A stretch of DNA of 40,574 nt from Candidatus Methylomirabilota bacterium (GTDB lineage: Bacteria > Methylomirabilota > Methylomirabilia > Rokubacteriales > CSP1-6). Each line of letters opens with the position of its first letter. Positions within the stretch are counted from its first letter, which is position 1. Position numbers and translations under genes: made by a program. The DNA is taken from NCBI GenBank assembly GCA_035709005.1, contig DASTFB010000011.1:1-40574 (forward strand), written 5' to 3'. This document shows positions 1 through 15,870 of this stretch, in pieces. Under the pieces are notes generated by a model. That model saw nothing but the letters and a program-made list of their open reading frames with translations. It was not told the origin of the DNA and made no database searches.

Positions 1-142
1 GGAGATGGTGATGCCGGGGGACAACATCACGACGTCGATCGAGCTGATCACGCCGGTGGCGATGGAGAAGGAGTTGCGGTTCGCGATCCGGGAGGGGGGC
101 CGCACGGTGGGCGCCGGCGTGGTGACCGAGGTCCTCGAGTAA
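1..142 (+). CDS. tuf: Elongation factor Tu, C-terminal end (partial)
   Basis: The last 46 residues of a protein whose 5' part lies outside the window; the first full codon starts at base 2. The reading MVMPGDN...[26 protein letters not shown] followed by a C-terminal E is the diagnostic end of EF-Tu domain 3, which contacts the tRNA acceptor and T arms. EF-Tu is the GTPase that brings aminoacyl-tRNA to the ribosome. It stops 4 nt before rpsJ, so the usual str-S10 junction (fusA-tuf-rpsJ) is probably intact and S10 is likely co-transcribed with it. Confidence 0.97.
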
Positions 143-146
143 CATC

Positions 147-467
147 ATGGCCACGCTGTCCGCTGACCAGAAGATCCGCATCCGGCTGAAGGCCTACGAT
201 CATCACTTGCTGGATCGCTCGGTGAAGGAGATCGTGGACACCGTCCGCCGGACCGGGGCCCGCATCTCGGGGCCGGTGCTGCTCCCCACGATCATCAACC
301 GCTGGACGGTGCTGCGCTCGCCGCACGTCGACAAGACGTCTCGCGAGCAGTTCGAGATGCGCACCCACAAGCGGTTGATCGACATCGTGGACCCCACGCC
401 GCAGACGGTGGACTCCCTCATGAAGCTCGATCTCCCCGCCGGCGTCGACGTCGAGATCAAACTCTAA
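147..467 (+). CDS. rpsJ: 30S ribosomal protein S10
   Basis: 106 residues, the usual size. The core [14 protein letters not shown] and the central [13 protein letters not shown] are S10 signatures; the C-terminal part [21 protein letters not shown] is the standard end. S10 sits in the head of the 30S subunit and also pairs with NusB in transcription antitermination. The ATG lies 4 nt after the tuf stop, so initiation is likely coupled. An unusually long gap for this operon (180 nt), carrying an inverted-repeat element, separates it from rplC. Confidence 0.98.
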
Positions 468-473
468 TGACGG

Positions 474-585
474 CGATGAAACCGGCCCATCTCCTTCGTT
501 GGCTCGTCGCTCCTCCCTGCGGCGTACCAGCGCGTACGCCTCAGTCGTCGCTCCTCGCCGCCTCGGATCTGGACCGGTTTGATCG
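474..585. repeat. MITE/REP-like inverted-repeat element in the rpsJ-rplC gap
   Basis: The 112-bp segment has imperfect terminal inverted repeats of 21 nt (474-494 against the reverse complement of 565-585), identical at 17 of 21 positions by hand alignment. The core is AAACCGG at 479-485 and CCGGTTT at 574-580. At the centre is a perfect 7-bp hairpin, GGCGTAC (521-527) and GTACGCC (534-540), with a 6-nt loop. A 12-nt direct repeat TCGTCGCTCCTC occurs at 504-515 and 545-556. There is no coding potential of its own and no T-tract after the hairpin, so it does not look like an intrinsic terminator. No second copy was seen by eye in this window. Confidence 0.6.
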
Positions 586-647
586 ACGCTCGTCGGCGCC
601 TAGCATCTGGGCATTTTTGATCGGCTCAGGCGAGCGAGATCACTGAG

Positions 648-1322
648 ATGGCCAGGAAGGAAGGCTTGATCGGGCGAAAGGTGGGGATGACCCAGGTCTT
701 CGGGGAGGACGGGAATCATCTGCCGGTGACGGTCATCCAGGCTGGGCCGTGCACCGTACTCGGCATCCGGACCCGGGAGACCCACGGCTACGACGCCATC
801 CAGCTCGGCTTCGAGCCGAAGAAGAAGGTGGCCAAGCCGGTGGCCGGACAGTTCAAGAAGGTCGGCGTGGAGCCCATGCGGGTGATCCGGGAGATCCGGC
901 TCGAGAAGAGCGAGATGCTCCAGGGCTACCAGGTGGGCCAGACGGTCACCGCCGAGCTGTTCAAGCCCGGAGAGCTGGTGGACGTGGTCGGGGTCAGCAA
1001 AGGTAAGGGGTTCCAGGGCGGCGTGAAGCGTCACGGCTGGTACGGAGGCGACGCCACGCACGGCTCGATGTTCCATCGGGCTCCCGGCTCGATCGGGGCC
1101 TCCTCCGATCCTTCCCGGGTGTGGCCGGGCCACCGGCTGCCGGGACGCATGGGCGGCGAGCGCCGGACGGTGATGAACATCAAGGTGGTCCGCGTGATGG
1201 CCGATCACGGGCTCGTCCTGGTTGAGGGGGCCGTGCCCGGCGCCAACGGCGGACTGGTGCTCATCCGCAAGAGCGTCAAGACGACCCGGGCCCAGCAGCG
1301 CGCTGCGGCGGAGCGTCGATGA
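648..1322 (+). CDS. rplC: 50S ribosomal protein L3
   Basis: 224 residues. MARKEGLIGRKVGMTQVF is the L3 N-terminus; the central SKGKGFQGGVKRHG...GSMFHRAPGSIG loop reaches towards the peptidyl-transferase centre, and GRMGGERRT(V) is the conserved binding segment. L3 is an early assembly protein of the large subunit. The ATG at 648 has only a weak Shine-Dalgarno-like GAG run, and the gene follows the repeat element in the 468-647 gap, so it is the gene most exposed to any effect of that insertion. Its TGA overlaps the rplD ATG (ATGA). Confidence 0.98.
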   Translation: MARKEGLIGRKVGMTQVFGEDGNHLPVTVIQAGPCTVLGIRTRETHGYDAIQLGFEPKKKVAKPVAGQFKKVGVEPMRVIREIRLEKSEMLQGYQVGQTVTAELFKPGELVDVVGVSKGKGFQGGVKRHGWYGGDATHGSMFHRAPGSIGASSDPSRVWPGHRLPGRMGGERRTVMNIKVVRVMADHGLVLVEGAVPGANGGLVLIRKSVKTTRAQQRAAAERR

Positions 1323-2014
1323 TGCCGAGCGTGGAGGTCCTGGGAGCCAAGGGGCAGGTGGTGGGTCGACTGGAGCTCAAGGCCGATGTCTTCGGGGCCG
1401 AGATCCGGGTGCCGCTGCTTCACCAGGCGGTGACGCGCGAGCTCAACGACCGTCGTGTCGGAACCCACGACACCAAGGGACGGAGCGAGGTCTCGGGCGG
1501 CGGCCGCAAGCCGTGGCGGCAGAAGGGCACTGGTCGCGCCCGGCAGGGCTCCATCCGGGCGACGCAGTGGAAGGGTGGCGGCAAGCCCTTCGGCCCCACG
1601 CCACGCACCTACGAGCAGCAGATGCCGCGCACCATGCGACGGCAGGCGCTGCGCGCCGCCGTGGCCGCCAAGATCGCCGCCGGGGAGTTGAGCGTGGTGG
1701 ACGCGCTGAACGTCACCGGGGGCAAGACCAAGGCGTTGGTGAGCCGGCTGGCCGAGGTCGGGGTGACGGCCGTGCCCACCCTGCTGGTCGTGGAGTCGCT
1801 CAGCGAGGCGCTGACGCGTGCGGCCCGCAATGTTCCGTGGTTGACGGTCGAGACGCCGGCGCAGGTGTCCGTCTACCAGCTCCTGCGGGCGCGGCGGGCG
1901 GTGTTCGAGCGGGCGGCGCTGTTGAGCCTGGAGAGGGCGCTCTCGTCGGAGTCGGAGTCGGGGGCGGGCGGCGGCGCGCCGGCGGTGGAGCACGCGGGGG
2001 CGAGGCAATCATGA
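1319..2014 (+). CDS. rplD: 50S ribosomal protein L4
   Basis: 231 residues, about 30 longer than E. coli L4 (201). The loop [15 protein letters not shown]...WKGGG at about residues 64-86 is the extension that lines the exit-tunnel constriction. The extra length is a C-terminal tail rich in Ser, Glu, Gly and Ala after ALLSLERAL. In E. coli L4 represses its own operon; no comparable leader is visible because the operon start lies outside the window. Two consecutive Met codons (1319 and 1322) are possible starts; the first overlaps the rplC stop and is preferred. Confidence 0.97.
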
Positions 2015-2304
2015 GCCGGAATGCCCGCCAGATCATCCTGCGTCCGATCATGACCGAGAAGAGCATGCAGCAGAAAGAGGCGCACAACGTGGTGACGTTC
2101 CGGGTGCGTCCGGACGCCAACAAGGTGGAGATCCGCACCGCGGTGGAGGCGATCTTCAACGTCAAGGTAACCGACGTCCGCACCTCCTCCTACGAGGGCA
2201 AGCTCAAGCGCATGGGGCGCCACCAGGGCCACCGCCCCGACTGGAAGAAGGCCGTGGTGCAACTGGCGCCCGGGCACAAGATCGACCTGGTCGAGGGAGC
2301 CTGA
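2011..2304 (+). CDS. rplW: 50S ribosomal protein L23
   Basis: 97 residues. IILRPIMTEKSMQ and the middle VRPDANKVEIRTAVEAIFNV are classic L23 signatures, as is the tail GHRPDWKKAVVQLAPGHKID. L23 sits at the polypeptide exit and is the docking point for trigger factor and SRP. The ATG at 2011 overlaps the rplD TGA in an ATGA junction, which fixes the start; a much longer reading upstream in the same frame is a shadow of rplD and rplC. Confidence 0.98.
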   Translation: MSRNARQIILRPIMTEKSMQQKEAHNVVTFRVRPDANKVEIRTAVEAIFNVKVTDVRTSSYEGKLKRMGRHQGHRPDWKKAVVQLAPGHKIDLVEGA

Positions 2305-2307
2305 GGC

Positions 2308-3132
2308 ATGGGCATCCGCACCCTGAAACCGACCTCGCCGGCCCGGCGCTACCTCACCTACGTGACTCGCGAGGAGATCACCAAGCAGGAGCCGGAGAAG
2401 GGTCTGCTGCTGCCCAAGCGGCGGACCAGCGGCCGGAACAGTTACGGGCGTATCACCGTGCGTCACCGCGGCCAAGGCCACAAACGCATGCTCCGCCAAG
2501 TCGATTTCCGGCGTGAGAAGCTCGGCATCCCGGCCCGGGTCGCCGCCATCGAATACGATCCGAACCGGTCGGCGCGGCTGGCGTTGCTGCACTACCGCGA
2601 CGGCGAGAAGCGCTACATCGTGGCCGCGGTGGGCCTGAAGGTCGGCGACACGGTGATGTCCGGGCCGCAGGCTGACATCCTGCCCGGCAACGCGCTGCCG
2701 CTTCGGAACATCCCCGTCGGCACGCTCGTTCACAACGTCGAGCTGCAGCCCGGGCGCGGGGGCCAGCTCTGCCGGAGCGCGGGCGCCCAGGCCCAGTTGC
2801 TGGCCAAGGAGGCCGGCCGGGCGACCCTCAAGATGCCGTCGGGCGAAGTGCGCATGGTCGCCGTCGACTGCATGGCCACCGTAGGGCAGGTAGGCAACCT
2901 CGATCACGAGAACATCTCGGTCGGCAAGGCCGGACGCACCCGCTGGCGCGGCTTCCGACCGACCGTTCGCGGCACCGTCATGAACCCGGTCGATCACCCG
3001 ATGGGTGGAGGCGAGGGCCGCGGCAAGGGGAATCATCCGATGACGCCGTGGGGCAAGCCGACCAAGGGCTACAAGACCCGGCGTGGGGCCAGAGCCTCGG
3101 ACCGCGACATCCTGACGCGGCGGAAGAGGTAG
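2308..3132 (+). CDS. rplB: 50S ribosomal protein L2
   Basis: See corrected full-length entry for L2 at 2308-3132. Confidence 0.01.
2308..3132 (+). CDS. rplB: 50S ribosomal protein L2
   Basis: 274 residues, the normal length. The N-terminal OB-like RNA-binding domain is followed by the KOW/SH3-like domain. The motif [16 protein letters not shown] near residues 226-241 contains the conserved His (H230 here) placed near the peptidyl-transferase centre. L2 is required for subunit association and peptide-bond formation. It starts 3 nt after the rplW stop and ends 9 nt before rpsS. Confidence 0.98.
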
Positions 3133-3141
3133 GGAGCCGGC

Positions 3142-3435
3142 ATGGGACGCTCGCTGAAGAAGGGTCCGTACATCGACGAGAAGCTGCTGCGCCGCATCGA
3201 GGAGCTGAACCGCAACCGCCAGAAGAAGGTCCTCAAGACGTGGTCGCGCCGGTCGACGATCGCCCCGGAGTTCCTCGGCCACACGCTGGCCGTGCACAAC
3301 GGCAAGAAGTTCATTCCGGTGTACGTCACCGAGAACATGGTTGGACACCGGCTGGGCGAGTTCGCGTTGACGCGGACGTTCAAGGCCCACGGCACCGCCG
3401 AGAAGGCGGCGGCGACGCCCACGGGGAAGGCCTAG
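3142..3435 (+). CDS. rpsS: 30S ribosomal protein S19
   Basis: 97 residues. [43 protein letters not shown] and [19 protein letters not shown] are the full set of S19 signatures. S19 forms a complex with S13 in the 30S head next to the A and P sites. A GGGAGC-type ribosome-binding site precedes the ATG. The stop is separated from the rplV GTG by one base. Confidence 0.98.
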
Positions 3436-3436
3436 G

Positions 3437-3958
3437 GTGATCACCGTCGCCCGGGCCCGCTTCGTCCGTGTTTCCGCGCGGAAGGCGCGCCAGGTCCTCG
3501 ACGAGATCCGCCATCGGCCGGTGAGCGAGGCTCTGGCCACGCTGCAGTTCACGCCGCGGGCGGCCGCCCGCCTGATCGAGAAGGTGCTGCGCTCGGCCGT
3601 GGCCAATGCCGAGCACAACCATCAGATCCGCAACCTGGACGCCCTGCGGGTGCACCCGGCCGTCGCCGACGAGGGGCCCTCGATGAAGCGCGTGCAGCCG
3701 CGGGCGATGGGGCGGGCCTTCTACATCAAGCACCGGACGAGCCATCTCACGATCGGCGTGAGCGACGACACCGACGGCGTGAGCACGCCCGCGGCGCGCC
3801 CGGAACGCCCGCGCACGTCGGGGGCCGGCGCGGGGACGCCCCCGGCAGCCGCGCCGGCGGAGCCCCGGGCCCGACGGCCGGCGGCCAGGGCGCGGCGCGC
3901 GGCGCAACCGGGCAAGCGCCGGCCGGCGGCCAGACGCGCCGGGAAAGGGAAGGACTAG
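3437..3958 (+). CDS. rplV: 50S ribosomal protein L22 with a long basic C-terminal tail
   Basis: 173 residues against about 110 in E. coli. Residues 1-107 are a normal L22: [19 protein letters not shown] at the start, then the tunnel hairpin [11 protein letters not shown] and the end [10 protein letters not shown]. From about residue 110 the sequence is a roughly 60-residue tail of Ala, Pro, Arg and Gly that ends in KGKD and looks disordered. The start is GTG at 3437, one base after the rpsS stop; a start further upstream would overlap rpsS. L22 lines the nascent-chain tunnel. The tail would lie on the ribosome surface; its function is unknown. Confidence 0.96.
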
Positions 3959-3963
3959 GGACG

Positions 3964-4611
3964 ATGGGTCAGAAGACGCACCCGGTCGGCTTCCGTCTAG
4001 GCTCGACGCGCACGTGGTCGTCGCGGTGGTTCGCCACCAAGGACTACGCCAAGCTCCTGCACGAGGACGTGAAGATCCGGCGCCACATCAAGGATCAGCT
4101 GTATCACGCCGGTATTTCGCGGATCGACATCGAGCGCTCGGGGAACCGGGCTCGGATCACGGTCGCCACCGCGCGGCCGGGCATCATCATCGGCCGCAAG
4201 GGCGCCGAGGTGGAACGGCTGAAGAACGAGCTCCAGGCCCGGACGGGCAAGGAGATCTACCTCAACATCGAGGAAGTCATCCATCCCGAGCTGGACGCCC
4301 AGCTCGTTTCCGAGAACGTCGCCCTGCAGCTGCAGAAGCGGGTGGCCTTCCGCCGGGCCATGAAGAAGGCGGTCACTTCGGCCCTGCGCCTGGGCGCCGA
4401 CGGCATCCGGATCGCCTGCGCGGGACGGCTGGGGGGCAGCGAGATCGCCCGGCGAGAGTGGTACCGGGACGGTCGGGTGCCCTTGCACACCATCCGCGCC
4501 GACATCGACTACGGCCTGGCCACCGCCCATACGACGTACGGCACCATCGGCGTGAAGGTCTGGGTTTTCAAGGGCGAAGTGCTCGCCAAGGCCCCGCCGA
4601 CCGAGGCCTGA
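3964..4611 (+). CDS. rpsC: 30S ribosomal protein S3
   Basis: 215 residues, near the usual 210-230. [13 protein letters not shown] is the invariant start; the KH-type RNA-binding domain shows [16 protein letters not shown]; the C-terminal domain has [10 protein letters not shown] and [12 protein letters not shown]3 helps form the mRNA entry channel and contributes to helicase activity there. The ATG follows the rplV stop by 5 nt. Confidence 0.98.
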
Positions 4612-4621
4612 GGCCGCGACC

Positions 4622-5038
4622 ATGCTGATGCCCAAGCGCGTGAAGTACCGCAAGGCTCAACGGGGCCGCATGAGGGGCAAGGCCCAGCGCGGCGCCAGCC
4701 TGGCCTTCGGCGAATACGGGCTCAAGGCGCTCGAGCCGGGTTGGATCACCAACCGGCAGATCGAGGCGGCCCGGGTGGCCCTCACCCGCAGCCTCAAGCG
4801 CGGCGGCAAGATCTGGATCCGGATCTTCCCGGACAAGCCGGTGACCAAGAAACCGGCCGAGACCCGGATGGGCAAAGGCAAGGGCAATCCCGAGGACTGG
4901 GTGGCCGTCGTGAAACCCGGGCGGATCCTCTACGAGATGGAGGGCGTCAGCCTGGACGCCGCCCGCGAGGCGTTCCGGACGGCCGGCCAAAAGATGGGTA
5001 TCGCGACGAAGTTCGTCACGCGGACCCGGGCTCTCTGA
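4622..5038 (+). CDS. rplP: 50S ribosomal protein L16
   Basis: 138 residues. [35 protein letters not shown] and [20 protein letters not shown] are L16 signatures. L16 lies at the base of the central protuberance, contacts A-site tRNA and is a late assembly protein. RMGKG at about residue 81 contains the Arg that is hydroxylated in E. coli; whether that happens here cannot be told. It starts 10 nt after rpsC and ends 7 nt before rpmC. Confidence 0.98.
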
Positions 5039-5045
5039 GGCACCG

Positions 5046-5357
5046 ATGAAAGCGGCCAAGTGGCGTGATCTGAGCGACGACGAGATCCGGCAGCGTGCGC
5101 GGGAGCTCAGCGAGGAGGTCTTCAACCTGCGCTTTCAGCTGTCCATGGGGATGGCCAAGAACCCGGCCCGGGTCGGGCAGGCGCGCCGGGACCTGGCCCG
5201 GGCGCAGACGATTCTCCACGAGCGCGGCGTGGCGGGTGCGGTGGTGCCGGCGCTCGCGCCGGCCCGTGCCCAGGCAGCCCCGAGGCCGGCCAAGCGCGGG
5301 CGCTCGCGCGACGGCACCACGCCGGCCCGGCGACGCCGGCCGGCCAAGAAAGGGTAA
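5046..5357 (+). CDS. rpmC: 50S ribosomal protein L29 with a basic C-terminal extension
   Basis: 103 residues compared with 63 in E. coli. Residues 1-62 form the standard two-helix L29 (LSDDEIRQRARELSEEVFNLRFQ; NPARVGQARRDLARAQTILHER). The remaining 40 residues are Ala, Pro, Arg and Lys rich and low in complexity. L29 lies at the tunnel exit next to L23, so this tail and the L22 tail could both be near the emerging chain. The extension is genuinely in frame and ends in a TAA 3 nt before rpsQ. Confidence 0.95.
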   Translation: MKAAKWRDLSDDEIRQRARELSEEVFNLRFQLSMGMAKNPARVGQARRDLARAQTILHERGVAGAVVPALAPARAQAAPRPAKRGRSRDGTTPARRRRPAKKG

Positions 5358-5360
5358 GGC

Positions 5361-5666
5361 GTGAGCGAGCGGAAGACCCGGGAAGCCCTGGTCATCAGCG
5401 ACAAGATGCAGAAGACCCGCGTCGTGCGGATCGAGCGCGTCCACCGTCACCCTCGCTACGAGCGGGTCGTGCGGACGGCCAAGCGGCTCAAGGTCCACGA
5501 CGAGGGCAACGAAAGTCGGGTGGGCGACCGCGTGCTGATCGAGGAAACCCGGCCTTTGTCCAAGGAGAAGCGCTGGCGCATCCGCCAGATCGTGAAGGTG
5601 GCGGACCCAGCCGCGCGCACCTCGAACAGCCCACCTGCGGCTCGAGCCGGGCAAGCGCTCCGATAA
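5361..5666 (+). CDS. rpsQ: 30S ribosomal protein S17
   Basis: 101 residues, about 17 longer than E. coli S17, with the extra part at the C-terminus. REALVISDKMQKTRVVRIER and the following GDRVLIEETRPLSKEKRWRI are the S17 OB-fold signatures. S17 is a primary binder of the 16S 5' domain. The GTG start at 5361 is the only suitable start after the rpmC stop. The gene abuts rplN directly (TAA then ATG with no gap). Confidence 0.97.
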   Translation: MSERKTREALVISDKMQKTRVVRIERVHRHPRYERVVRTAKRLKVHDEGNESRVGDRVLIEETRPLSKEKRWRIRQIVKVADPAARTSNSPPAARAGQALR

Positions 5667-6035
5667 ATGATCCAGCCGCGCTCGATGCTCGAGGTCGCCG
5701 ACAACTCCGGAGCCAAGAAGGTGCAGTGCATCCGGGTGATGGGTGGGGCCAATAAGCGCTACGCCTCCATCGGCGACACCGTTATCGTCGCGGTCAAGGA
5801 GGCGGCCCCCGACGGCACGGTCAAAAAAGGGGAGGTGGCCCGGGCGGTGGTGGTACGGACGGTGAAAGAGGTGCGCCGCAAGGACGGTTCCTACATCCGG
5901 TTCGACCGCAACGCCGTGGTTCTCATCAAGCCCGATGAGAACCCGGTCGGCACCCGCATCTTCGGGCCCGTGGCCCGCGAGCTGCGGGAACGTCAGTTCA
6001 CCAAGATCATCTCGCTGGCGCCGGAGGTCATCTGA
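5667..6035 (+). CDS. rplN: 50S ribosomal protein L14
   Basis: 122 residues, exactly the family length. [27 protein letters not shown] is the L14 start, [12 protein letters not shown] and [27 protein letters not shown] the conserved end. L14 forms inter-subunit bridges and is the docking site of the silencing factor RsfS. The stop and the rplX start share one base (TGATG). Confidence 0.98.
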
Positions 6036-6361
6036 TGCCGGGCGTGCACGTGCGGCGGGGCGACGTGGTCGCCGTCATCGCAGGTAAGGAGCGGGGCAAG
6101 CGTGGCAAGGTCCTGCGGGTGCTGCGTGACAAGGGCCGGGTGGTGGTGGAGAAGGTGAACATGATCAAGCGCCACCAGCGGCCCACCCAGAAGCTCCGCC
6201 AGGGGGGCATCATCGAGCGAGAGGGGCCGCTGGCGCTCTCGAACGTCCAGCCGGTATGCAGCCGTTGCGACAAGCCAGCCCGGTCGGGTATCACCGTTCT
6301 CGCCGACGGCCGACGCCTGCGCGTCTGCAAGCGATGCGGCGAGCCCATGGACAAGGGGTAG
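6035..6361 (+). CDS. rplX: 50S ribosomal protein L24, zinc-ribbon form
   Basis: 108 residues. A KOW motif occupies residues 6-32 ([20 protein letters not shown]), followed by [11 protein letters not shown]. The C-terminal half carries two CxxC pairs (C75, C78 and C98, C101), the Zn-ribbon form of L24 found in many bacteria. L24 nucleates 50S assembly near the exit site. It starts on the last base of the rplN stop and ends 2 nt before rplE. Confidence 0.97.
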
Positions 6362-6363
6362 CG

Positions 6364-7035
6364 ATGGCTGAGAAGGCTCCGGCCCAAAAGACTCCCGCTC
6401 CGAAGGCCTCGGCCCGGCCGGCCCGGCCGCAGCAGCCCAAGAAGGGCGAGACCGCGCCGGTGGCCAAGACCCGGCCCCGGGGCACGGGGCAGGTCCCGCC
6501 CCGGCTCCGCGACCGGTTTCGAACGGCGGTCGTGCCCGCCCTGATGAAGGATCGCGGCTACGCCAATCCCTTCGAGGTGCCTCGGCTCGAGAAGATCGTG
6601 ATCAACATGGGCGTGGGCGAGGGTCGGGACAACGCCAAGGCTCTGGATTTCGCCACGACGGATCTGCTGGCCATCACCGGACAGAAGCCGGTGGTGACAC
6701 GGGCCAAGAAATCCATCGCCAACTTCAAGCTGCGGGCCGGCGTGCCGATCGGAGCCAAAGTCACGCTTCGGGGGGCCCGCATGTACGAGTTCCTCGACCG
6801 GCTCGTCAACGTGGCGCTGCCGCGCGTACGCGACTTCAAGGGCGTCCCCCCCAAGGGGTTCGACGGTCGGGGCAACTACGCCCTGGGGCTCCGCGAGCAG
6901 GTCATTTTTCCGGAGATCGTCTACGACAAGGTCGACAAGGTCCGCGGTATGGATATCAACATCGTGACGACGGCGCGAACCGACGAGGAGGCCCGGGCGC
7001 TCCTGGGCCAGCTCGGGATGCCGTTCAGGGACTAG
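6364..7035 (+). CDS. rplE: 50S ribosomal protein L5 with an N-terminal basic extension
   Basis: 223 residues against about 180 in most bacteria. Canonical L5 begins around residue 47 ([28 protein letters not shown]) and continues through [36 protein letters not shown] and the end [14 protein letters not shown]. The first 45 residues are a Lys, Ala and Pro rich segment beginning [14 protein letters not shown]. The ATG at 6364 is right after the rplX stop; no good internal start precedes the canonical part. L5 binds 5S rRNA and contacts P-site tRNA. Confidence 0.95.
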
Positions 7036-7042
7036 GGGCAGT

Positions 7043-7228
7043 ATGGCCAAGACCGCGCTCATCATGAAGGCCCAGCAGCCGCCGCGTTTTCAAACCCGCG
7101 CCTACCGCCGGTGCCGGCTGTGCGGGCGCCCCCGCGGGTATCTGCGAAAGTTCCAGATGTGCCGTCTGTGTTTCCGGGAGCTGGCCCTGAAGGGCGAGAT
7201 TCCGGGTGTGATCAAGGCCAGCTGGTGA
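7043..7228 (+). CDS. rpsN: 30S ribosomal protein S14, type Z (zinc-binding)
   Basis: 61 residues, the length of the short Zn-containing S14. Cysteines C24, C27, C40 and C43 ([21 protein letters not shown]) form the zinc site; [18 protein letters not shown] is the invariant end. S14 is a late-assembling 30S head protein. The short Zn form is the ancestral version and distinguishes this genome from gammaproteobacteria such as E. coli, which use the long Zn-free form. It is 7 nt from both neighbours. Confidence 0.98.
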
Positions 7229-7235
7229 GGCGCCG

Positions 7236-7631
7236 ATGAAGAGCGATCCCATCGCCGACCTGCTCACCCGGATCCGCAACGCCAGCCGCGCCGAGCACGA
7301 AAAGGTCGACATCCCCGCGTCCCGATTGAAGGTCAAGATCGCTGAGCTCCTCAAGACGGAGGGGTTCATCAAGAACTACCGGGTGCTCGACGACACCAAG
7401 CATGGTACGTTGCGCGTCTATCTCAAGTACGGGCCGGCCAACGAGCAGATGATCTCGGGCCTGGTCCGGGTGTCGAGCCCGGGACGCCGGGTGTACGTCA
7501 GCCACGATCGGATCCCGACCATCCTGGCCGGCATGGGCGTCACCATCGTCTCGACGTCGCGCGGCGTCATGACCGACCGGGATGCGCGGACTCACAAGGT
7601 GGGCGGCGAAGTGCTTGCCTACGTGTGGTAG
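7236..7631 (+). CDS. rpsH: 30S ribosomal protein S8
   Basis: 131 residues, standard. [13 protein letters not shown] at the start, then [23 protein letters not shown] and the end [26 protein letters not shown] are diagnostic. S8 binds helix 21 of 16S rRNA and in E. coli represses the spc operon by binding mRNA near rplE; no structure resembling that site was worked out here. It is followed 10 nt later by rplF. Confidence 0.98.
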
Positions 7632-7641
7632 AGAGCTGGCT

Positions 7642-8184
7642 ATGTCACGCATCGGTAAGCAGCCGATTCCCATTCCCAAGGACGTGAAGGTCCAGATCGA
7701 GGGCGAGGTCGTTCGCGCCGAGGGCCCCAGGGGCAAGCTCACCCAGACGGTACCCGCGGGGCTTCGTGCGGCGATCGACGATGGTCGGATGGTGATCACT
7801 CGTCAGGGCGACGACCGACGGGCGCGTGCGCTCCACGGGCTCACCCGGGCTCTCATGGCCAACATGGTGACCGGCGTTCAGCAGGGGTTCGAGAAAAAGC
7901 TCGAGATCGTCGGGATCGGCTACCGGGCGCAAATCCAGGGCCGGAATATCCAGCTGGCCCTCGGGTACTCGCACCCGGTGGTCTTTCCCCTCCCCGAGAC
8001 GATCACCGCGGAGATCGACAAGCAGACGCTCATCACGGTACGGGGTCCTGACAAGGCCCTGGTAGGACAGACGGCCGCCAAGCTTCGCGCTCTTCGTCAA
8101 CCGGACCCCTACAAGGGTAAAGGGATCAGGTACGCCGGTGAGGTTGTGCGGCGCAAGGTCGGCAAGAAGGCGGGGGCGAAGTGA
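7642..8184 (+). CDS. rplF: 50S ribosomal protein L6
   Basis: 180 residues, standard. [17 protein letters not shown] is the L6 start; two repeated domains follow, with [21 protein letters not shown] in the middle and [14 protein letters not shown] at the conserved end. L6 sits near the GTPase-associated centre. The ATG at 7642 was chosen over an upstream in-frame ATG inside rpsH because the protein family starts there. The TGA overlaps the rplR GTG (GTGA). Confidence 0.98.
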
Positions 8185-8546
8185 TCACGAAGGATCGTCG
8201 CGCCGCCCGCGATCTCCGGCATGCGCGGCTTCGCCGCCGGGTCATCGGCACCGCCGTGCGGCCGCGCCTGGCGGTGTTCCGGAGCTTGAACCACATCTAC
8301 GCGCAGCTGATCGACGACGCCTCCGGCCGTACCCTGGTGGCCGCGGACAGCCGGAGCAAGACCTTCCGGACCCAGCATCCCAGCGGCGGCAATGTGGCCG
8401 CCGCCAAGGCCGTGGGCCAGGCGCTGGCCGAACGGGCTCGGGCCCAGGGGATCGGGCGGGTGGTGTTCGATCGGGGCGGCGCTCGGTACCACGGACGGGT
8501 GAAGGCGCTGGCCGAGGCGGCCCGCGCCAGCGGGCTGGTCTTCTAG
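8181..8546 (+). CDS. rplR: 50S ribosomal protein L18
   Basis: 121 residues. The N-terminal basic part ([25 protein letters not shown]) binds 5S r[18 protein letters not shown] and [24 protein letters not shown] are L18 signatures. The GTG start at 8181 overlaps the rplF stop by 4 nt. It joins L5 in the 5S rRNP. It is 26 nt from the rpsE start. Confidence 0.98.
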
Positions 8547-8572
8547 TCGGAGAGGGCTTCGAGGAGAATCTG

Positions 8573-9109
8573 GTGGCGGAACCGCGGATAGATGCGAGTG
8601 TGCTGGAGCTGGCGGACCGGGTGGTGTCCATCAACCGGGTGGCCAAGGTCGTCAAGGGTGGCCGCCGGTTCTCCTTCACGGCGCTCGTCGTGGTCGGCGA
8701 TGGCCGGGGCCACGTGGGCGTCGGCCTGGGCAAGGCCCACGAGGTGCCGGAAGCGATCCGCAAGGCGGTGGAGCACGCCAAGAAGGATCTCATCTTCGTC
8801 CCCCTCCGGGAGGCGACCATTCCGTGTGAGATCACGGGCCACTTCGGAGCCGGCCGTGTCTTCCTGAAGCCAGCCGTGCCCGGAACCGGCGTCATCGCCG
8901 GTGGTGCGGTGCGACCGATCCTCGAAGCCGTGGGGGTGCAGGACATTCTCACGAAGACCCTGGGCTCCAATAACCCCCACAACGTGCTCAAGGCGACGAT
9001 GGACGCGCTGCGGCAGCTCAGGCGCATCCAGGACCTGCACGCCGTTCGCAAACGGGGCGACGGCGCCGGCGCCGCGGAGGAGGCCGGAAGTGGCGGAAAA
9101 GAAGCTTAG
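8573..9109 (+). CDS. rpsE: 30S ribosomal protein S5
   Basis: 178 residues. [21 protein letters not shown] opens the dsRNA-binding domain, [20 protein letters not shown] closes it, and the second domain has [21 protein letters not shown] and [12 protein letters not shown]5 controls decoding accuracy. The start is GTG at 8573, set by GAGGAG at 8561-8566 with a 6-nt spacer; the family N-terminus agrees. A longer upstream reading overlapping rplR is a shadow. The 3' end overlaps rpmD by 20 nt. Confidence 0.96.
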
Positions 9110-9278
9110 GATCAAGCTCACCGGGAGCATCATCGGGCTGTCGCCCAAGCAGGAGGCGACGGTCCGGGCGCTGGGCCTGCGCCGGATCAACCAGCTGGTG
9201 GTCCAGCCGGATACTCCCGACATCCGGGGTATGATCGCGAAAGTGCCGCATGTGCTGCAGGTGACCGATGAGGCTTGA
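9090..9278 (+). CDS. rpmD: 50S ribosomal protein L30
   Basis: 62 residues, the family size. [28 protein letters not shown] and the end [16 protein letters not shown] are L30 signatures. The start is GTG at 9090, preceded by GGAGGAGG around 9077-9084 that lies inside the end of rpsE, so the two genes overlap by 20 nt. L30 lies on the surface of the 50S near 5S rRNA. Its stop overlaps the first codons of rplO by 11 nt. Confidence 0.95.
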
Positions 9279-9735
9279 CGAGCTTCGTCCGGCCCCGGGC
9301 GCCAAGAGGCCGGCGAAGCGGGTGGGGCGCGGCCCGGGCTCCGGCCACGGCAAGACTTCGACCAGCGGGCACAAGGGCCAGAAGGCGCGTTCGGGGGGTG
9401 GCAAGGCCGGCGGGTTCGAGGGCGGGCAGATGCCGCTGTACCGGCGGCTGCCCAAGCGTGGGTTTCTTCCCTATGGCGGCAAGCAGACGTACGCCGTCGT
9501 CAACTTGACGGCCCTCGGCGGATTCACGGCCGGCGCCGTCGTCGATCCGGACGGGCTGGTCCAGGCCGGCCTCGTCAAGGCGGGCCGCCGCAGTCGCGTC
9601 AAGGTCCTGGGCTCGGGCGACGTGCCACACGCTCTGACGCTCAGGGTGCACGCGGTCAGCGCGTCGGCGCGTTCGAAGATCGAGGCACAGGGGGGACGGG
9701 TGGAGCTCATCACACCGGGAGCGCGGACTCCGTGA
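9268..9735 (+). CDS. rplO: 50S ribosomal protein L15
   Basis: 155 residues. [29 protein letters not shown] with the following GHKGQKARSGGG is the Gly/Arg/Lys-rich N-terminal arm that threads into 23S rRNA; FEGGQMPLYRRLPKRGF is the signature motif. L15 is a late assembly protein. It starts within the end of rpmD and ends in a GTGA overlap with secY. Confidence 0.98.
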   Translation: MRLDELRPAPGAKRPAKRVGRGPGSGHGKTSTSGHKGQKARSGGGKAGGFEGGQMPLYRRLPKRGFLPYGGKQTYAVVNLTALGGFTAGAVVDPDGLVQAGLVKAGRRSRVKVLGSGDVPHALTLRVHAVSASARSKIEAQGGRVELITPGARTP

Positions 9736-11060
9736 TCGAAGGCCTGCAGAGCTTTCAGAACGTCTTCAAGATCCCCGAGCTCAAGCGTCGGCTCCTGATC
9801 ACGGCCGGCTTGCTCATCGCCTACCGGCTGGGCGCCCACGTGCCGACCCCGGGTGTCGACGGCCATGTGCTGGCCCAGTTCTTCGACCAGATGCAGCAAG
9901 GCCTGCTGGGCATGGTCGATCTCTTCTCCGGCGGTAACCTGCGCCGGCTATCGATCTTCGCGCTCGGGATCATGCCCTACATCTCGGCCTCGATCATCCT
10001 GCAGCTCCTGACCGTGGTCATCCCCGCCCTGGAACGGTTGGCCAAGGAGGGGGAAGCCGGCCGCAAGAAGATCACCCAGTACACCCGCTACGGCACCATC
10101 GTGCTCAGCGCGGTCCAGGCCTTCGGCATCGCCTATGGCCTGGAACGGATGCCCACGCCGACCGGCGCGCCGATCGTGCCGTATCCCGGCTGGGGCTTCC
10201 GCCTGCTGACCGCCCTCACCCTCACCGCCGGCACGGCCCTGATCATGTGGATCGGCGAACAGATCTCCGAGAAGGGGATCGGCAACGGCATCTCCCTCAT
10301 CATTTTCGCCGGCATCGTGGTGAGGCTGCCGTCGGCCATCGTCGCCTCCTACTCCCTGATCACCACCGGGGAGATGAAGCTGTTCGTCTTCCTCGGCCTC
10401 TGCGCCCTCATGCTGGCGGTGACGGCCGCGGTGGTGCTGATGCAGGAGGGCCAACGCAAGATCCCGGTGCAGTATGCCCGTCGGGTCGTCGGCCGCCGGG
10501 TGTACGGGGGGCAGTCCACGCACATTCCGCTGCGGATCAACACGGCCGGGGTGATCCCGGTCATCTTTGCCTCGTCCCTGATCCTGTTTCCGGCCACGAT
10601 CACGAATTTCATGCCACACCCCTGGATGCAGGTGATCGCGGACGCCATGAGCCCGGGGCGCTTCACCTACACCGTGCTATACATGGCGCTCATCGTCTTC
10701 TTCGCCTACTTCTACACGGCCATCGTCTTCAACCCCGTGGATCTCGCCGACAACATGAAGAAGTACGGCGGGTTCATTCCCGGAGTGCGGCCGGGCAAGA
10801 AGACGGCCGAGTACATCGACCACGTGCTGACCCGCATCACCCTGCCCGGGGCTTTGTTCCTGGCCATCATCTCGGTGCTGCCCGACTTCATGATCCGCTG
10901 GTTCAACGTCCCCTTCTACTTCGGAGGGACCAGCCTGCTCATCGTCGTCGGCGTGGCCCTGGACACCGTGCGCCAGATGGAATCCCACCTGCTGATGCGT
11001 AACTACGAGGGCTTCCTCAAGCGCTCTCGCTCGCGCTCGGGCGTGTTCGGGAGAACCTAG
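9732..11060 (+). CDS. secY: Preprotein translocase channel subunit SecY
   Basis: 442 residues, typical. The inner-membrane channel for Sec export and membrane insertion. Ten hydrophobic segments can be followed, starting with RLLITAGLLIAYRLGAHVPTPG in TM1 and the plug/TM2a region LFSGGNLRRLSIFALGIMPYISASI. The cytosolic loop between TM6 and TM7 has the conserved QEGQRKIPVQYARRVVGRR, and the loop between TM8 and TM9 has GGFIPGVRPGKKTAEYI, where SecA and ribosomes bind. The start is GTG at 9732, overlapping rplO by 4 nt. It abuts adk directly. Confidence 0.97.
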   Translation: MIEGLQSFQNVFKIPELKRRLLITAGLLIAYRLGAHVPTPGVDGHVLAQFFDQMQQGLLGMVDLFSGGNLRRLSIFALGIMPYISASIILQLLTVVIPALERLAKEGEAGRKKITQYTRYGTIVLSAVQAFGIAYGLERMPTPTGAPIVPYPGWGFRLLTALTLTAGTALIMWIGEQISEKGIGNGISLIIFAGIVVRLPSAIVASYSLITTGEMKLFVFLGLCALMLAVTAAVVLMQEGQRKIPVQYARRVVGRRVYGGQSTHIPLRINTAGVIPVIFASSLILFPATITNFMPHPWMQVIADAMSPGRFTYTVLYMALIVFFAYFYTAIVFNPVDLADNMKKYGGFIPGVRPGKKTAEYIDHVLTRITLPGALFLAIISVLPDFMIRWFNVPFYFGGTSLLIVVGVALDTVRQMESHLLMRNYEGFLKRSRSRSGVFGRT

Positions 11061-11714
11061 GTGCGCGTGGTCTTCCTCGGTCCGCCGGGCGCCGGCAAAG
11101 GGACACAGGCGCGGGAGCTGGCGCGCGCCTGGGGGGTGCCGCAGATCGCCACGGGGGATATGCTCCGCGACGCGGTGACGGCCGGGACGCCCCTGGGTCG
11201 TCAGGCTCGCGGCTACATGGATCGCGGGGCTCTGGTGCCCGACGACGTCATCATCGGCCTCATCGCCGACCGGCTGGCCCGCCCGGACGCCGAGCGCGGC
11301 TTCGTCCTCGACGGTTTCCCCAGGACCATTCCCCAGGCCGAAGCCCTGGACCGGCTCCTGGAGGAGTTGGGGCAGAAGCTCGAGCGGGTCGTCTTCTTCG
11401 AGGTGTCGGAGGCGGAGTTGCTGCGCCGACTCACCGGGCGGCGCTCCTGTCCAACCTGCCAGGCCACCTATCACGTCGTGGCCGCACCAGCCCGCCGTGA
11501 GGGTGTGTGCGACCGGTGCGGAAGCGCACTGACGCAGCGGGAGGACGACCGGGAGGCGACCGTTCGGACCCGCCTCCAGGTCTACGCCGAGCAGACGGCG
11601 CCGCTGCTGGACTACTATCAGGCTCGCGGACTGCTCGTCCGGGTGGCCGGCGAGGGCCCCATCGAGGCGATTCGCGACAGGGCGCGCCGGGCGGCGGAGA
11701 CGGGTCGGCCGTGA
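11061..11714 (+). CDS. adk: Adenylate kinase with a zinc-binding lid
   Basis: 217 residues, long-form bacterial adenylate kinase (ATP + AMP to 2 ADP), cytosolic. P-loop GPPGAGKGT at residues 7-15; AMP-binding TGDMLR (31-36) and GFVLDGFPRT (80-89); lid from about 122 to 160 with four cysteines C130, C133, C150 and C153, the Zn-binding lid type. RTRLQVY with the Arg residues closes over ATP. The GTG start directly follows the secY stop. The secY-adk-map order is conserved in many bacteria. The stop overlaps map by 4 nt. Confidence 0.97.
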   Translation: MRVVFLGPPGAGKGTQARELARAWGVPQIATGDMLRDAVTAGTPLGRQARGYMDRGALVPDDVIIGLIADRLARPDAERGFVLDGFPRTIPQAEALDRLLEELGQKLERVVFFEVSEAELLRRLTGRRSCPTCQATYHVVAAPARREGVCDRCGSALTQREDDREATVRTRLQVYAEQTAPLLDYYQARGLLVRVAGEGPIEAIRDRARRAAETGRP

Positions 11715-12478
11715 TCGTGCTCAAGTCGGCGCGGGAGATCGAGATCATGCGTCAGGGAGGCCACATCCTGGCCGACCTGATGGAGCACCTGCGGAGCACG
11801 GTCAAGGCCGGAATGTCGACGTTGGAGATCGACGAGCACGTCGAGGCATTCATCACGCGCCGGAGCGCCCGGACGGCCTTCAAGGGCTATCGCGGGTTTC
11901 CCGCTTCGGTCTGCGTTTCGATCAACGAGGAGGTCGTTCACGGCATCCCCTCGGCCCATCGCCACCTGAAGGAGGGGGACATCGTCGGCCTGGATCTGGG
12001 CTGCATCGTCGACGGGTACTACGCCGACTGCGCCTTCACCATGGCCATCGGCGAGATTCCTTTAGCGGTGGAGCGGCTGCTCGAGGTGACCCGGCGGAGT
12101 CTCGACCTGGCCGTCGAGCAATGCCGTCCCGGCCGCCGGCTGTCCGACGTCTCGCACGCCGTGCAGCAGCACGTCGAGGCGCACGGCTTCGCTGTCGTGC
12201 GCGCGTTCGTCGGTCATGGGATCGGGCGGGCCTTGCACGAGGAACCGCAGGTTCCGAACTTCGGCGAGCCCGGCCGGGGGCCGCAGCTCAAGCCGGGCAT
12301 GGTGCTGGCCATCGAGCCGATGGTCACGATGGGCGGTGGGGACGTCAGGATCCTCGACGACGGCTGGACCGCCGTCACCACGGACGGCAGCCTGGCCGCG
12401 CATTTCGAGCACACCGTGGCCATCACCGACGAGGGGCCCTCGGTGCTGACCAGGCGCGCCGCCAACGGGCAGGGTTGA
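11711..12478 (+). CDS. map: Methionine aminopeptidase, type I
   Basis: 255 residues. Removes the N-terminal Met from new proteins. The five metal ligands are all present: D95 (GLDLG), D106 (YADCAF), H169 (VGHGIG), E202 (AIEPM) and E233 (HFEHT), plus the substrate-side H77 (VVHGIP). There is no N-terminal SH3/zinc extension, so it is type Ia. GTG at 11711 overlaps the adk TGA; another GTG six bases later is a weaker alternative. It is followed at once by infA. Confidence 0.97.
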
Positions 12479-12479
12479 G

Positions 12480-12698
12480 ATGGCCAAAGAAGACGCCATC
12501 GAGGTGGAAGGCACCGTGGTGGAGCCGCTGCCGAACGCGATGTTTCGGGTGGAGCTGGACAACGGTCACCGGGTCTTGGCCCACGTCAGCGGCAAGATGC
12601 GGATGAACTTCATCCGCATCCTGCCGGGTGACCGGGTGAAGGTCGAGTTGTCGCCCTACGACCTCACCCGCGGCCGCATCACGTATCGGTTCAAGTAG
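12480..12698 (+). CDS. infA: Translation initiation factor IF-1
   Basis: 72 residues, exactly the family length. [26 protein letters not shown], then [35 protein letters not shown] and GRITYRFK, reproduce the S1-like OB fold of IF-1. It blocks the A site during initiation. It starts one base after the map stop, giving the common map-infA-rpmJ order. Confidence 0.98.
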
Positions 12699-12716
12699 GC
12701 GAGCAAGAGAGGCGAG

Positions 12717-12830
12717 ATGAAGGTGAGGCCTTCGGTGAAGACGCGCTGTGAGCACTGTAAGATCGTCCGGCGGAAGGGGGTCACGCGCATCATTTGCAAG
12801 AACCCCCGACACAAACAGCGGCAGGGATAG
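12717..12830 (+). CDS. rpmJ: 50S ribosomal protein L36, zinc-binding form
   Basis: 37 codons before the TAG, too short for most ORF callers. It reads [20 protein letters not shown] and then a short tail with C27 and H32, so the zinc ligands are C11, C14, C27 and H32 (the C+ form). L36 is the smallest large-subunit protein and organises 23S helices near the L7/L12 stalk base. A GAGAGGCGAG stretch just upstream serves as ribosome-binding site. It is the last gene before the hairpin-containing gap at the alpha-operon boundary. Confidence 0.96.
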
Positions 12831-12946
12831 ATCATTCGGAGGGGGCGACATACGGGCGCGCCCGTGGGGCGCGACGGCCCCCTCCGAGGCCTCCCCCAGG
12901 AAGAGAGCGCGCCGGCGGAACCGGCGCTCGAAAGGGAGACGAAGAG
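12831..12946 (+). promoter_or_regulatory. rpmJ-rpsM spacer with two perfect hairpins
   Basis: A 116-nt gap at the boundary between the spc and alpha operons. The first hairpin has a perfect 10-bp stem, CGGAGGGGGC at 12837-12846 and GCCCCCTCCG at 12877-12886. Inside its loop is the 14-nt perfect palindrome ACGGGCGCGCCCGT (12852-12865). The second hairpin has a 7-bp stem, GCGCCGG (12909-12915) and CCGGCGC (12921-12927), with a 5-nt loop, 19 nt before the rpsM ATG. Neither is followed by a T-run. In E. coli the mRNA upstream of rpsM binds S4 and represses the alpha operon; the position is the same here, but similarity to that pseudoknot was not shown. Confidence 0.5.
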
Positions 12947-13363
12947 ATGGCCAGAGTAGCGGGAGTGGATCTGCCGCGGGAGAAGCGGGGGGAGATCGCC
13001 CTCACGTACCTGTACGGCATGGGGCGCCCGACGTCGCTCAAGGTGCTGCGGCAAGCGCGGGTCGATCCCGACAAGCGGGTGAAGGCGTGGACCGAGGAAG
13101 AGACCGCCCGCGTCCGCGAGATCATCGAGCAAGAGCTGAAGGTGGAGGGTGACCTCCGACGCGAGATCGCCATGAACGTCAAGCGGCTGATGGATATCGG
13201 CTGCTACCGCGGTATCCGTCACCGCCGGGGCTTGCCCGTGCGGGGCCAGCGGACCCACACCAATGCGCGCACCCGGAAGGGTCCGCGCAAGGGCGTCATG
13301 GTGAAGAAGAAGCCGACGGCGGCCGCCCCGGCTCCGTCGGCAGCCCGAAAGGCGGGAGCGTAA
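12947..13363 (+). CDS. rpsM: 30S ribosomal protein S13
   Basis: 138 residues, about 20 longer than E. coli S13 because of a Lys/Ala/Pro tail. [21 protein letters not shown], the H2TH-like middle and [25 protein letters not shown] are signatures. S13 contacts the P-site tRNA and the 50S through bridge B1. The ATG at 12947 was chosen over an upstream in-frame ATG at 12794, which would run through the rpmJ end and the hairpins; AAGGGAGACGAAGAG precedes it. Confidence 0.97.
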
Positions 13364-13366
13364 CCG

Positions 13367-13777
13367 ATGGCCGACCAGCAGGCGAAACCGGCGCCACGGA
13401 AAAAGGGCGGCAAGCGGCGCGAGCGGCGGGAAGTGCGCACGGGCGTGGCGCACATCCAGGCGACCTTCAACAACACGATCGTGACCTTGACCGACAAGGC
13501 CGGCAACGTGGTTGCCTGGTCGAGCGCGGGCAGCGCCGGGTTCAAGGGTTCCCGGAAGTCCACGCCCTTCGCGGCCCAGACGGCAGCCGAGCAGGCGGCC
13601 CGCAAGGCCATGGAGTACGGGCTGAAACAGGTCGAGGTCTGCGTGAAGGGCCCGGGCGCCGGACGGGAGGCCGCCATCCGATCGCTGCAGGCGGTCGGCC
13701 TGGAGATCAGCTCGATCCGTGACGTGACCCCGATCCCGCACGACGGCTGCCGGCCGCCGAAGCGGCGGCGAGTGTAA
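13367..13777 (+). CDS. rpsK: 30S ribosomal protein S11
   Basis: 136 residues. A short basic N-terminal arm ([16 protein letters not shown]) precedes the core [30 protein letters not shown], then [18 protein letters not shown] and [15 protein letters not shown], ending [16 protein letters not shown]11 forms the platform near the mRNA exit with S7 and S18. It lies 3 nt from both rpsM and rpsD. Confidence 0.98.
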
Positions 13778-13780
13778 ACG

Positions 13781-14404
13781 ATGGCCCGCTATCGCGATGC
13801 CAAGTGTCGTCTGTGCCGGCGGGAGGGGATCAAGCTCTTCCTCAAGGGCGCCCGTTGCTTCACCGATAAGTGCGCCATCGAGCGCCGCAATTATCCCCCG
13901 GGCCAGCACGGACTGAACCGCGGCAAGCTCACTGCGTTCGGGGTCCAGCTCCGGGAGAAGCAGAAGGCCAAGCGGATCTACGGGGTGCTGGAGCAGCAGT
14001 TCCGGCGCTACTTCGAGTCGGCCGAGCGTCAGAAGGGCGCCACCGGCGAGAATCTCCTCAAGCTGCTGGAGCTGCGGCTGGACAATGTCGTCTACCGCCT
14101 GGGCTTCGCGGCGTCCCGCCGGGAGTCCCGCCAGATGGTGGCCCACGGGCATTTCCAGGTGAACGGACGCAAGGTGTCGATCCCTTCGTATCTGACCAAG
14201 GTCGGGGACACCGTCCAGCTGCGACCGAGCTCCAAGCACGCTCCCCGTGTCGACGACAACGTCAACGCGGGGCGCGGCCAGGTTCCCCAGTGGCTGGAGC
14301 TCCAGCCCGAGGCGCGGCGCGGGGTCGTCCGCAGCCTGCCCCTGCGCGAGGATGTCCAGATTCCCGTGTCCGAACAGCTCATCGTCGAGCTCTACAGCAA
14401 GTAG
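13781..14404 (+). CDS. rpsD: 30S ribosomal protein S4, zinc-binding form
   Basis: 207 residues. The N-terminus carries C9, C12, C26 and C31, the Zn-binding C+ form, followed by NYPPGQHG. The S4 RNA-binding domain is at about residues 95-155 ([41 protein letters not shown] in overlapping segments), and the end is [14 protein letters not shown]4 nucleates 30S assembly, guards decoding fidelity and in many bacteria represses the alpha operon. It is 11 nt ahead of rpoA. Confidence 0.97.
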
Positions 14405-14415
14405 CAGGAGCCGTC

Positions 14416-15399
14416 ATGCCACGCATTCCGTTTCAGAAGCCGCGAAAGGTCGACTGGGAGATCTTGAGCGAGCGGTACGGCCGGCTGGTGTCCGAGCCCT
14501 TCGAGAAGGGGTATGCCCTCACGGTGGGCAACGCGCTGCGCCGGACGCTACTCGCCATCGTCCCCGGGGCGGCCGTCACCTGGATCAAGATCGAGGGAGT
14601 GAAGGGCCCCGAGGCCAAGATTCCCGGAGTCGTGGAAGGCACCGCCGATGTGCTCATGAACTTCAAGAAGCTGGCGATCCAGGTTCCCGCCGGCGAGCCG
14701 CAGGTGCTCAGCCTGGAGTTCACCGGCCCCAAGACCGTCACCGGCGCCGACGTTCCGGAAACCGACCTCGAAGTCGTGAATCCCGAGGTCCATCTGTTCA
14801 CGCTGGAGGGCGGAGCCCGGCTGAGCCTGGAGATCGGCATCGGCGTGGGCCGCGGTTACGAGGCGGCCGATCGGAAGACGTCGCCGCCGCCGCCCGGAGC
14901 TTTGATCCTGGACGCGGCCTACTCGCCCATCACCCGGGTCTCCTACAGCGTCGAGATGTCCCGGTTGGGAAAGATCACCGACTACGAGAAACTCGCGCTG
15001 GAGATCTGGACGAATGGTGCGGTCAGTCCGGACGATGCGCTGGAGCGGGCGGCGAGCTTCCTCCGTGGCCACTTCAGCCCCTTGACCGTCCGTACCGGTG
15101 AAGAGGAAACGGAAGCGGAGGGCGGCTCCGGCGAGGAGTATCTGCGGGAGGCGTTGTCCAAGACCCTCGAGGAGCTCCCGCTCCCGGCGCGGGCGGTGAA
15201 CGCGCTGAAGAACGCGGAGATCCACCTGGTGGCCGACCTCGCCCAGAAGACCGAGACCGACCTCGAGCAGGTCAAGAACCTCGGAGAGAAATCGATCGAC
15301 GAGATCAAGAGCGCACTGGCCGGGCTGGGGTTGTCGCTGGGGATGCGCATCGATCCGGGGATCCTGGGCGCGCTGGGGCGGGGAGGCCTGGTTCGATGA
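14416..15399 (+). CDS. rpoA: RNA polymerase alpha subunit
   Basis: 327 residues, normal size. The N-terminal assembly domain (about 1-230) shows KGYALTVGNALRRTLL, VTWIKIEGV and YSPITRVSYSVEMSRLG...YEKLALEIWTNG; the alpha dimerises here and carries beta and beta-prime. After an acidic linker (EEETEAEGGSGEE, about 232-246) comes the C-terminal domain with LPLPARAVNALKNAEI and KNLGEKSIDEIK, which binds UP elements and activators. The ATG at 14416 fits the family start; the long upstream reading is a shadow of rpsD. The stop overlaps rplQ by 4 nt. Confidence 0.98.
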   Translation: MPRIPFQKPRKVDWEILSERYGRLVSEPFEKGYALTVGNALRRTLLAIVPGAAVTWIKIEGVKGPEAKIPGVVEGTADVLMNFKKLAIQVPAGEPQVLSLEFTGPKTVTGADVPETDLEVVNPEVHLFTLEGGARLSLEIGIGVGRGYEAADRKTSPPPPGALILDAAYSPITRVSYSVEMSRLGKITDYEKLALEIWTNGAVSPDDALERAASFLRGHFSPLTVRTGEEETEAEGGSGEEYLREALSKTLEELPLPARAVNALKNAEIHLVADLAQKTETDLEQVKNLGEKSIDEIKSALAGLGLSLGMRIDPGILGALGRGGLVR

Positions 15400-15869
15400 G
15401 ACATCGCGCCCACCGATACCGGCTCGGCCGGGAGTCGGCGCACCGCTTGGCTATGGTGCGCAACCTCCTGGTCGCCTTGTTCCGTCACGAACGGATCACC
15501 ACGACCGAAACCAAAGCCAAGGCGGTCCGGCCTCTGGCCGACCGCATCGTCACCCTGGCCAAGCAGGAGAGCCTGCACGCCCGACGCCAGGCGCTGGCCA
15601 TGGTTCCCGACGCCCAGGTGGTCGCCCGGCTCTTCGATACGATCGCCGCTCGCTTCTCCGACCGTCACGGCGGCTACACGCGAATCATCAAGAACGGCGT
15701 CCGTCGGGGTGACGCGGCGCCGCTGGTATTCCTGGAGCTGGTCGATCGGGCGGACACCGGCGCCGACAAAGACAAGGACAAGGCTGACCGGAAAGCGAAA
15801 CCCGCCCGGGGGCGGGCCCAGGCGGGCCGTCGAGGGAAGAAGAAGGAAAAGGCCGCCGCCTCGTCCTAG
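15396..15869 (+). CDS. rplQ: 50S ribosomal protein L17 with a basic C-terminal tail
   Basis: 157 residues compared with 127 in E. coli. MRHRAHRYRLGRESAHRLAMVRNLL and ITTTETKAKAVRPLADRIVTLAK are the L17 start; RFSDRHGGYTRIIKNGVRRGDAAPLVFLELV closes the core near residue 118. A charged tail of about 40 residues (KDKDKADRKAK..., GRRGKKKEKAAASS) follows. L17 lies at the tunnel exit. It is the last gene of the super-operon and its stop is one base from the stop of the convergent gene on the other strand, so no terminator lies between them. Confidence 0.97.
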   Translation: MRHRAHRYRLGRESAHRLAMVRNLLVALFRHERITTTETKAKAVRPLADRIVTLAKQESLHARRQALAMVPDAQVVARLFDTIAARFSDRHGGYTRIIKNGVRRGDAAPLVFLELVDRADTGADKDKDKADRKAKPARGRAQAGRRGKKKEKAAASS

Positions 15870-15870
15870 C

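Follow-up and report, generated by a model that had tools for sequence, protein, structure and literature searches.

A MITE-like hairpin element between rpsJ and rplC in Rokubacteriales and a spacer ORF that probably bridges the two ribosomal protein genes

How can a ribosomal protein operon tolerate a long inverted repeat between two of its genes? In the window (the whole stretch of DNA analysed here, 40,574 nt), which starts within what we take from the residues to be the 3' end of tuf, rpsJ and rplC are separated by a spacer of 180 nt that contains a hairpin element. According to PMC10666635, translational coupling is nearly gone when two genes lie about 20 nt apart, and a structured insert of 180 nt should therefore uncouple rplC from rpsJ unless it is traversed by ribosomes. 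Here, such a passage is made possible by the TAATG at position 467 and by a TGA that precedes the rplC start by one base. The preliminary description of this locus had overlooked that the spacer is an ORF with its start and stop at or near both gene borders, as well as the placement of the family copies directly after stop codons. The features of the junction are as follows.

147–467, + strand: rpsJ (S10), the upstream gene, identified from its translation; its TAA stop overlaps the ATG at 467
467–646, + strand: bridging ORF of 59 aa, from the TAATG overlap with the rpsJ stop to a TGA 1 nt before the rplC ATG
474–585, + strand: family A hairpin element, 112 bp, in sense orientation, starting 6 nt past the rpsJ stop
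474–494, + strand: left terminal arm, pairing with 565–585 at 17 of 21 positions and containing an ATG at 476–478
504–515, + strand: internal direct repeat, copy 1, TCGTCGCTCCTC, 12 nt
517–544, + strand: central hairpin with arms 517–527 and 534–544
545–556, + strand: internal direct repeat, copy 2, TCGTCGCTCCTC, 12 nt
565–585, + strand: right terminal arm, matching 474–494 at 17 of 21 positions
583–625, + strand: remnant of a further right half of family A, arranged in tandem, 583–620 being 76% identical to 545–582
648–1322, + strand: rplC (L3), the downstream gene, identified from its translation

The inverted-repeat element is real and its ends are exact. A BLAST search with it among 40 genomes gave a match at E ≤ 0.01 in 21, and the best match outside its own genome covered exactly positions 474–585 with 90% identity, in agreement with the 112-bp extent and the 17/21 termini first proposed; in the repeat comparison, the pairing of the terminal arms could be extended to 24 nt at 79%. 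The internal direct repeat was recovered as described, the two copies listed being the only exact matches across the window, and some relatives aligned by BLAST to query positions 122–158, the second right half. The central hairpin was confirmed as well, with a perfect core of 7 bp (521–527/534–540). No Rfam model matched positions 300–800 up to an E value of 1.

Relatives carry this element in numbers. A covariance model built on 38 copies found matches in 67 of 95 genomes of the phylum, with several relatives reaching from at least 33 to at least 35 copies, whereas the own genome yielded no further copy with the model and a next best BLAST match at E 0.11; the element is thus present once in its own genome and multiply in relatives. 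The alternative of a non-repetitive spacer without copies elsewhere did not arise, and the initial assignment as a MITE/REP-like insertion between rpsJ and rplC is borne out by relatives with same-ended copies and by sister genera in which the same spacer measures 8–18 nt. The family is a dispersed hairpin repeat of Candidatus Rokubacteria and relatives, and the named relatives of the rplC gene belong to Candidatus Rokubacteria, Rokuibacteriota or Methylomirabilota. With its terminal inverted repeats (17/21), its short length (112 bp) and its lack of a transposase gene, the element is best described as non-autonomous and MITE-like, the transposase search having covered Y1_Tnp. Searches of mobile DNA at 1e-3 (plasmids with the window element, phages and plasmids with a copy from a relative) gave no match. 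Seventeen of the 27 pairs of the terminal stem show double compensatory changes. On the sense strand of 110 copies, G·U cells (23) were fewer than A·C cells (118, of which 81 lie in one fixed column), and without the fixed column the numbers were 22 and 37 (P = 0.07). Since G·U is not favoured, the pattern does not point to selection at the level of the sense RNA, and the stem constraint may act on the DNA.

The comparison of junctions was based on 47 distinct genomes of the order with readable rpsJ–rplC spacers, 25 of which measure 60 nt or more; junctions that lacked rplC or were incomplete were excluded, and records judged duplicate from identical spacers or match coordinates were equated (GWA2 with G088, RIFLOW with G089, AR45 with G081, AR44 with G084 and CSP1-6 with G086). 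Family A occupies the junction in 11 genomes from seven genera, in reversed orientation in G015, G069 and G073, and the copy of G071 is interrupted by another hairpin. Other genera in the order hold different repeats at this site (families B, C and D). The expectation of a junction that is usually a few bases long did not hold, because spacers in other phyla range from −4 to 271 nt among loci where rpsJ was found and unrelated repeats occupy the same site in other genera of the phylum; on the whole, the preliminary description is partly supported. A tree that placed junction copies among other copies took eight of the 11 (G008, G022 and G071 were too divergent or interrupted), and these eight were scattered without forming a clade, which, on topology only, points to repeated insertion. 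A single ancestral insertion of family A at the junction was considered and found no support in this tree of 8/11 copies.

The junctions also show several peculiarities of their own. G069, G070 and G073 share the same element without a difference across the 112 aligned nt, although their rpsJ genes are only 87–91% identical. Compared with G070, the element lies inverted in G069 and G073 together with part of its flank, so that the S10 cluster possibly contains an invertible segment at these loci (L262 in G070, L263 in G069 and L266 in G073). At L274 (G080), L255 (G081) and L257 (G089), the site that the element occupies in relatives holds short palindromes instead (GTGAGCGCGCTCAC, AAGGCCGAGGCCTT and TGCGACGCCGATCGCA), which may be sites of insertion or what the deletion of a hairpin has left behind. 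Heptamer-like imperfect palindromes of the GTCCGAC or AGCTGA types lie unbridged at rpsJ–rplC in other orders of the class (L284–L288, L084–L089 and L293), an Acidiferrales genome (L171) has a direct-repeat array in a 175-nt rpsJ–rplC spacer, and in two genomes from another family of the class the rplC matches each contain one in-frame TGA (G040:C211 and G042:C542), which may reflect recoding, a frameshift or an assembly error.

The remaining junctions of the ribosomal cluster that could be well delimited mostly measure −4 to 26 nt. The rpmJ–rpsM spacer is 116 nt long with a different hairpin; it is filled at 12831–12946 by a distinct repeat, GGAGGGGG..CCCCCTCC, together with a hairpin, GCGCCGGCG..CCGGCGC. 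The reverse-complement type of this repeat is found at rpsJ–rplC in G013, G021, G090 and GWA2, as well as at other ribosomal protein junctions.

The spacer ORF is not peculiar to this genome. In the order, a short ORF that runs from the stop of rpsJ to the start of rplC spans 24 of the 25 rpsJ–rplC spacers of at least 60 nt, compared with none of 17 in other orders (0/11 and 0/6) and two of 18 in other phyla. A bridge was defined as an ORF that starts between −4 and +12 of the rpsJ stop and ends between −25 and +12 of the rplC start, windows that were chosen after the first set of spacers had been seen and were fixed before the second. All 14 long spacers of the first set were bridged, each of them improbably so under full shuffles, and, grouped by related spacers, 8/8 gave P = 3e-7 against full shuffles, a value that, like the other bridging P values, is too small, because rows share ancestry within genera and the counts are not independent. 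Shuffling the core only gave P = 0.12 for this set, and its evidence therefore rests in the positions of the start and stop codons. In the second set, ten of 11 spacers were bridged, against 1.23 expected from full shuffles and 5.5 expected when the ends were kept and the core was shuffled (P = 0.0016); G090 has a long spacer without a bridge. At ribosomal protein spacers other than rpsJ–rplC, bridges were found in seven of 15, with 0/4 at rpmJ–rpsM.

These counts bear directly on the idea that the insert is a neutral passenger, GC-rich and poor in stop codons, whose bridge follows from its composition and from old overlapping start and stop codons. The core-shuffle result of the first set agrees with this idea, as do the repeats that lie unbridged at the same junction in other orders and the frame of the copies outside the junction, which is open from the slot of the arm ATG in 33 of 44; much of the openness of the frame is thus due to the composition of the element. 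The results of the second set speak against it, as does the distribution of the start codon: an ATG at the same place in the rpsJ-proximal arm is present in 11/11 family A junctions, compared with 9/44 copies elsewhere and with 7/20 copies drawn largely from matching genera (P = 0.006 after collapsing by genus); G022 is heavily represented in the non-junction sets. Neutral passage, one of the two chief alternatives to a translated bridge, is considered unlikely, if still worth weighing. Away from the junction, an ORF bridge to the following gene was found for seven of ten co-directional copies with the arm ATG and for four of 27 without it (P = 0.003). A confinement of the arm ATG to co-directional genes, which seemed strong by eye, was abandoned when automated calling gave P = 0.14.

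As the other chief alternative, the hairpin could serve in transcription or mRNA processing and the open frame be incidental, the structure acting either as a partial terminator or as a 3'-end barrier that protects an abundant tuf–rpsJ mRNA and sets a separate level from rplC on. Throughout the phylum, this junction is indeed filled by unrelated inverted repeats, and folds with z < −2 were obtained for 27 of 36 long spacers (four of the 67 junctions surveyed were duplicates, all shorter than 60 nt). Moreover, A- and T-tracts flank a stem in the family core, copies lie directly after stop codons, and the spacer holds one terminator-like site, at 598–612; a promoter search of the spacer found none. 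In this copy, however, the T-tract is eroded (GGTTTGATC), and the fold of the whole spacer reaches a z of only −1.27 (−2.0 for positions 440–620). The fold alone is weak evidence, and it is membership of the family that raises the element above chance. The scarcity of G·U pairs on the sense strand is a further point against an RNA device, and such a device does not predict where the bridging ORF starts and stops. The effect on mRNA stability or the RNase processing suggested in the preliminary description likewise gains no support from the sequence comparisons. On balance, we regard a transcriptional or processing function in place of a translated bridge as rather unlikely.

The placement of the family raises the question of how it moves. 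Among 75 copies with enough flank, 46 start shortly after the same-strand stop of a coding-like ORF (gap −9 to 25, with a peak at 5–6 nt), compared with 10/75 in the mirrored right-end test and 103/3040 random positions; in a second set of copies with a narrower window, 19/41 followed a sense stop and 1/41 did so in the mirrored test. The genes near copies were called by a GC-skew ORF rule rather than a gene finder, with 4/52 contexts at an edge, and the preceding stops are of all kinds (TAG, TGA and TAA). One copy in G022 has CTAG on both flanks, and the orthologous empty site in G084 and G085 is a single CTAG, which fits a target duplication or, alternatively, insertion 3' of CTAG; the pattern was not seen at rpsJ. 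This one clean orthologous empty site suggests that insertion occurs at CTAG, and such a target would bring copies to stop codons. CTAG is rarer than expected, with eight occurrences in positions 1–15900 of the window, six of them at gene stops. At another locus (g9), the element is present in G071 and G069 and partial in G076, whereas five of the nine congeners examined (G008, G070, G072, G074 and G075) have the locus without it; it is also absent from G073, where the sequence has diverged.

The clean empty site fits an insertion 3' of CTAG like that of IS200/605 elements. Together with the NTAG foot of a hairpin that follows stop codons, this speaks for a REP/REPIN mobilized by a transposase of the RAYT (Y1) type. 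Y1_Tnp was nevertheless not matched in the drafts of G022, with its at least 33 copies, of G015, G017 and G024 or of the own genome, and none of 30 Y1_Tnp loci has a family copy nearby, so that mobilization by a RAYT appears improbable.

A small protein with a function of its own as the product of the ORF, as its 59 aa and its start and stop at both gene borders might suggest, is very improbable, since the unrelated families B, C and D give equally good bridges, the element is read in both orientations, bridges use different frames and orientations between genomes, and among the family A copies only the first residues are alike.

The reading that we favour, with a probability of about 0.62, is that a MITE-like element has inserted repeatedly at this junction and that the spacer ORF bridges rpsJ and rplC by termination–reinitiation. 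Ribosomes leaving rpsJ would reinitiate at once, on or just past its stop, often at the ATG in the left arm of the element, would translate and unfold the hairpin, and would then terminate at the start of rplC, from which they would initiate again. Selection would eliminate insertions that disrupt this coupling of ribosomal protein genes, and the present insertion would be tolerated because it is translated and keeps rpsJ and rplC coupled. The family, its placement, its recurrence at the junction and the open bridging frame are observed, and translation of the frame, coupling, selection and the mode of transposition are inferred. It is a more tentative proposal, and one that may well not hold, that Rokubacteriales repeatedly recruit a mobile hairpin as a translational bridge, which inserts at the rpsJ stop, brings its own start in the arm and leads ribosomes to rplC. 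A selfish repeat would in this way have turned into an exchangeable module for coupling in one of the most conserved operons of the cell. If it is recruited in this way, the hairpin could further tune the coupling by folding only when ribosome traffic on rpsJ is low.

If the translated bridge is correct, it explains how long structured insertions are tolerated inside a ribosomal protein operon, and a single junction with filled, with empty and with inverted alleles provides a natural series for the study of termination–reinitiation. A repeat family placed at stop codons is also described here from an uncultured phylum; the open-access literature searched yielded no description of the family, of rpsJ–rplC repeats or of repeat-borne bridging ORFs.

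Among known systems, the element probably works like a MITE-type passenger made compatible with translation. REP/REPIN sequences with their RAYT are dispersed extragenic hairpins, as are the copies described here, which are much longer and for which a RAYT association was looked for and not found. Chunjie, a MITE of Geobacter uraniireducens, is described in PMC10969869 as lying inside an operon whose structure is undisturbed; both are short inverted-repeat elements within an operon, whereas the present element follows a stop codon, has a spacer ORF that joins two ribosomal protein genes and is a single copy in its genome. The same source presents the Rickettsia palindromic elements as palindromic repeats of approximately 100–150 bp that keep an open frame; as described there, they are fused in frame inside genes and have a conserved peptide, whereas here the frame is intergenic, the peptide is unconserved and 0/52 copies were called inside an ORF. 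QMITE2 of Coxiella burnetii, which that text places mostly in 3' untranslated regions, shares with family A a preference for the 3' side of ORFs, whereas family A has a fixed orientation and most often starts 5–6 nt past the stop. Finally, the ribosome termination structures, presented in PMC7518266 as stable structures directly after stop codons, occupy a comparable position, but the structure described here belongs to a mobile repeat family and, at rpsJ–rplC, is crossed by an ORF.
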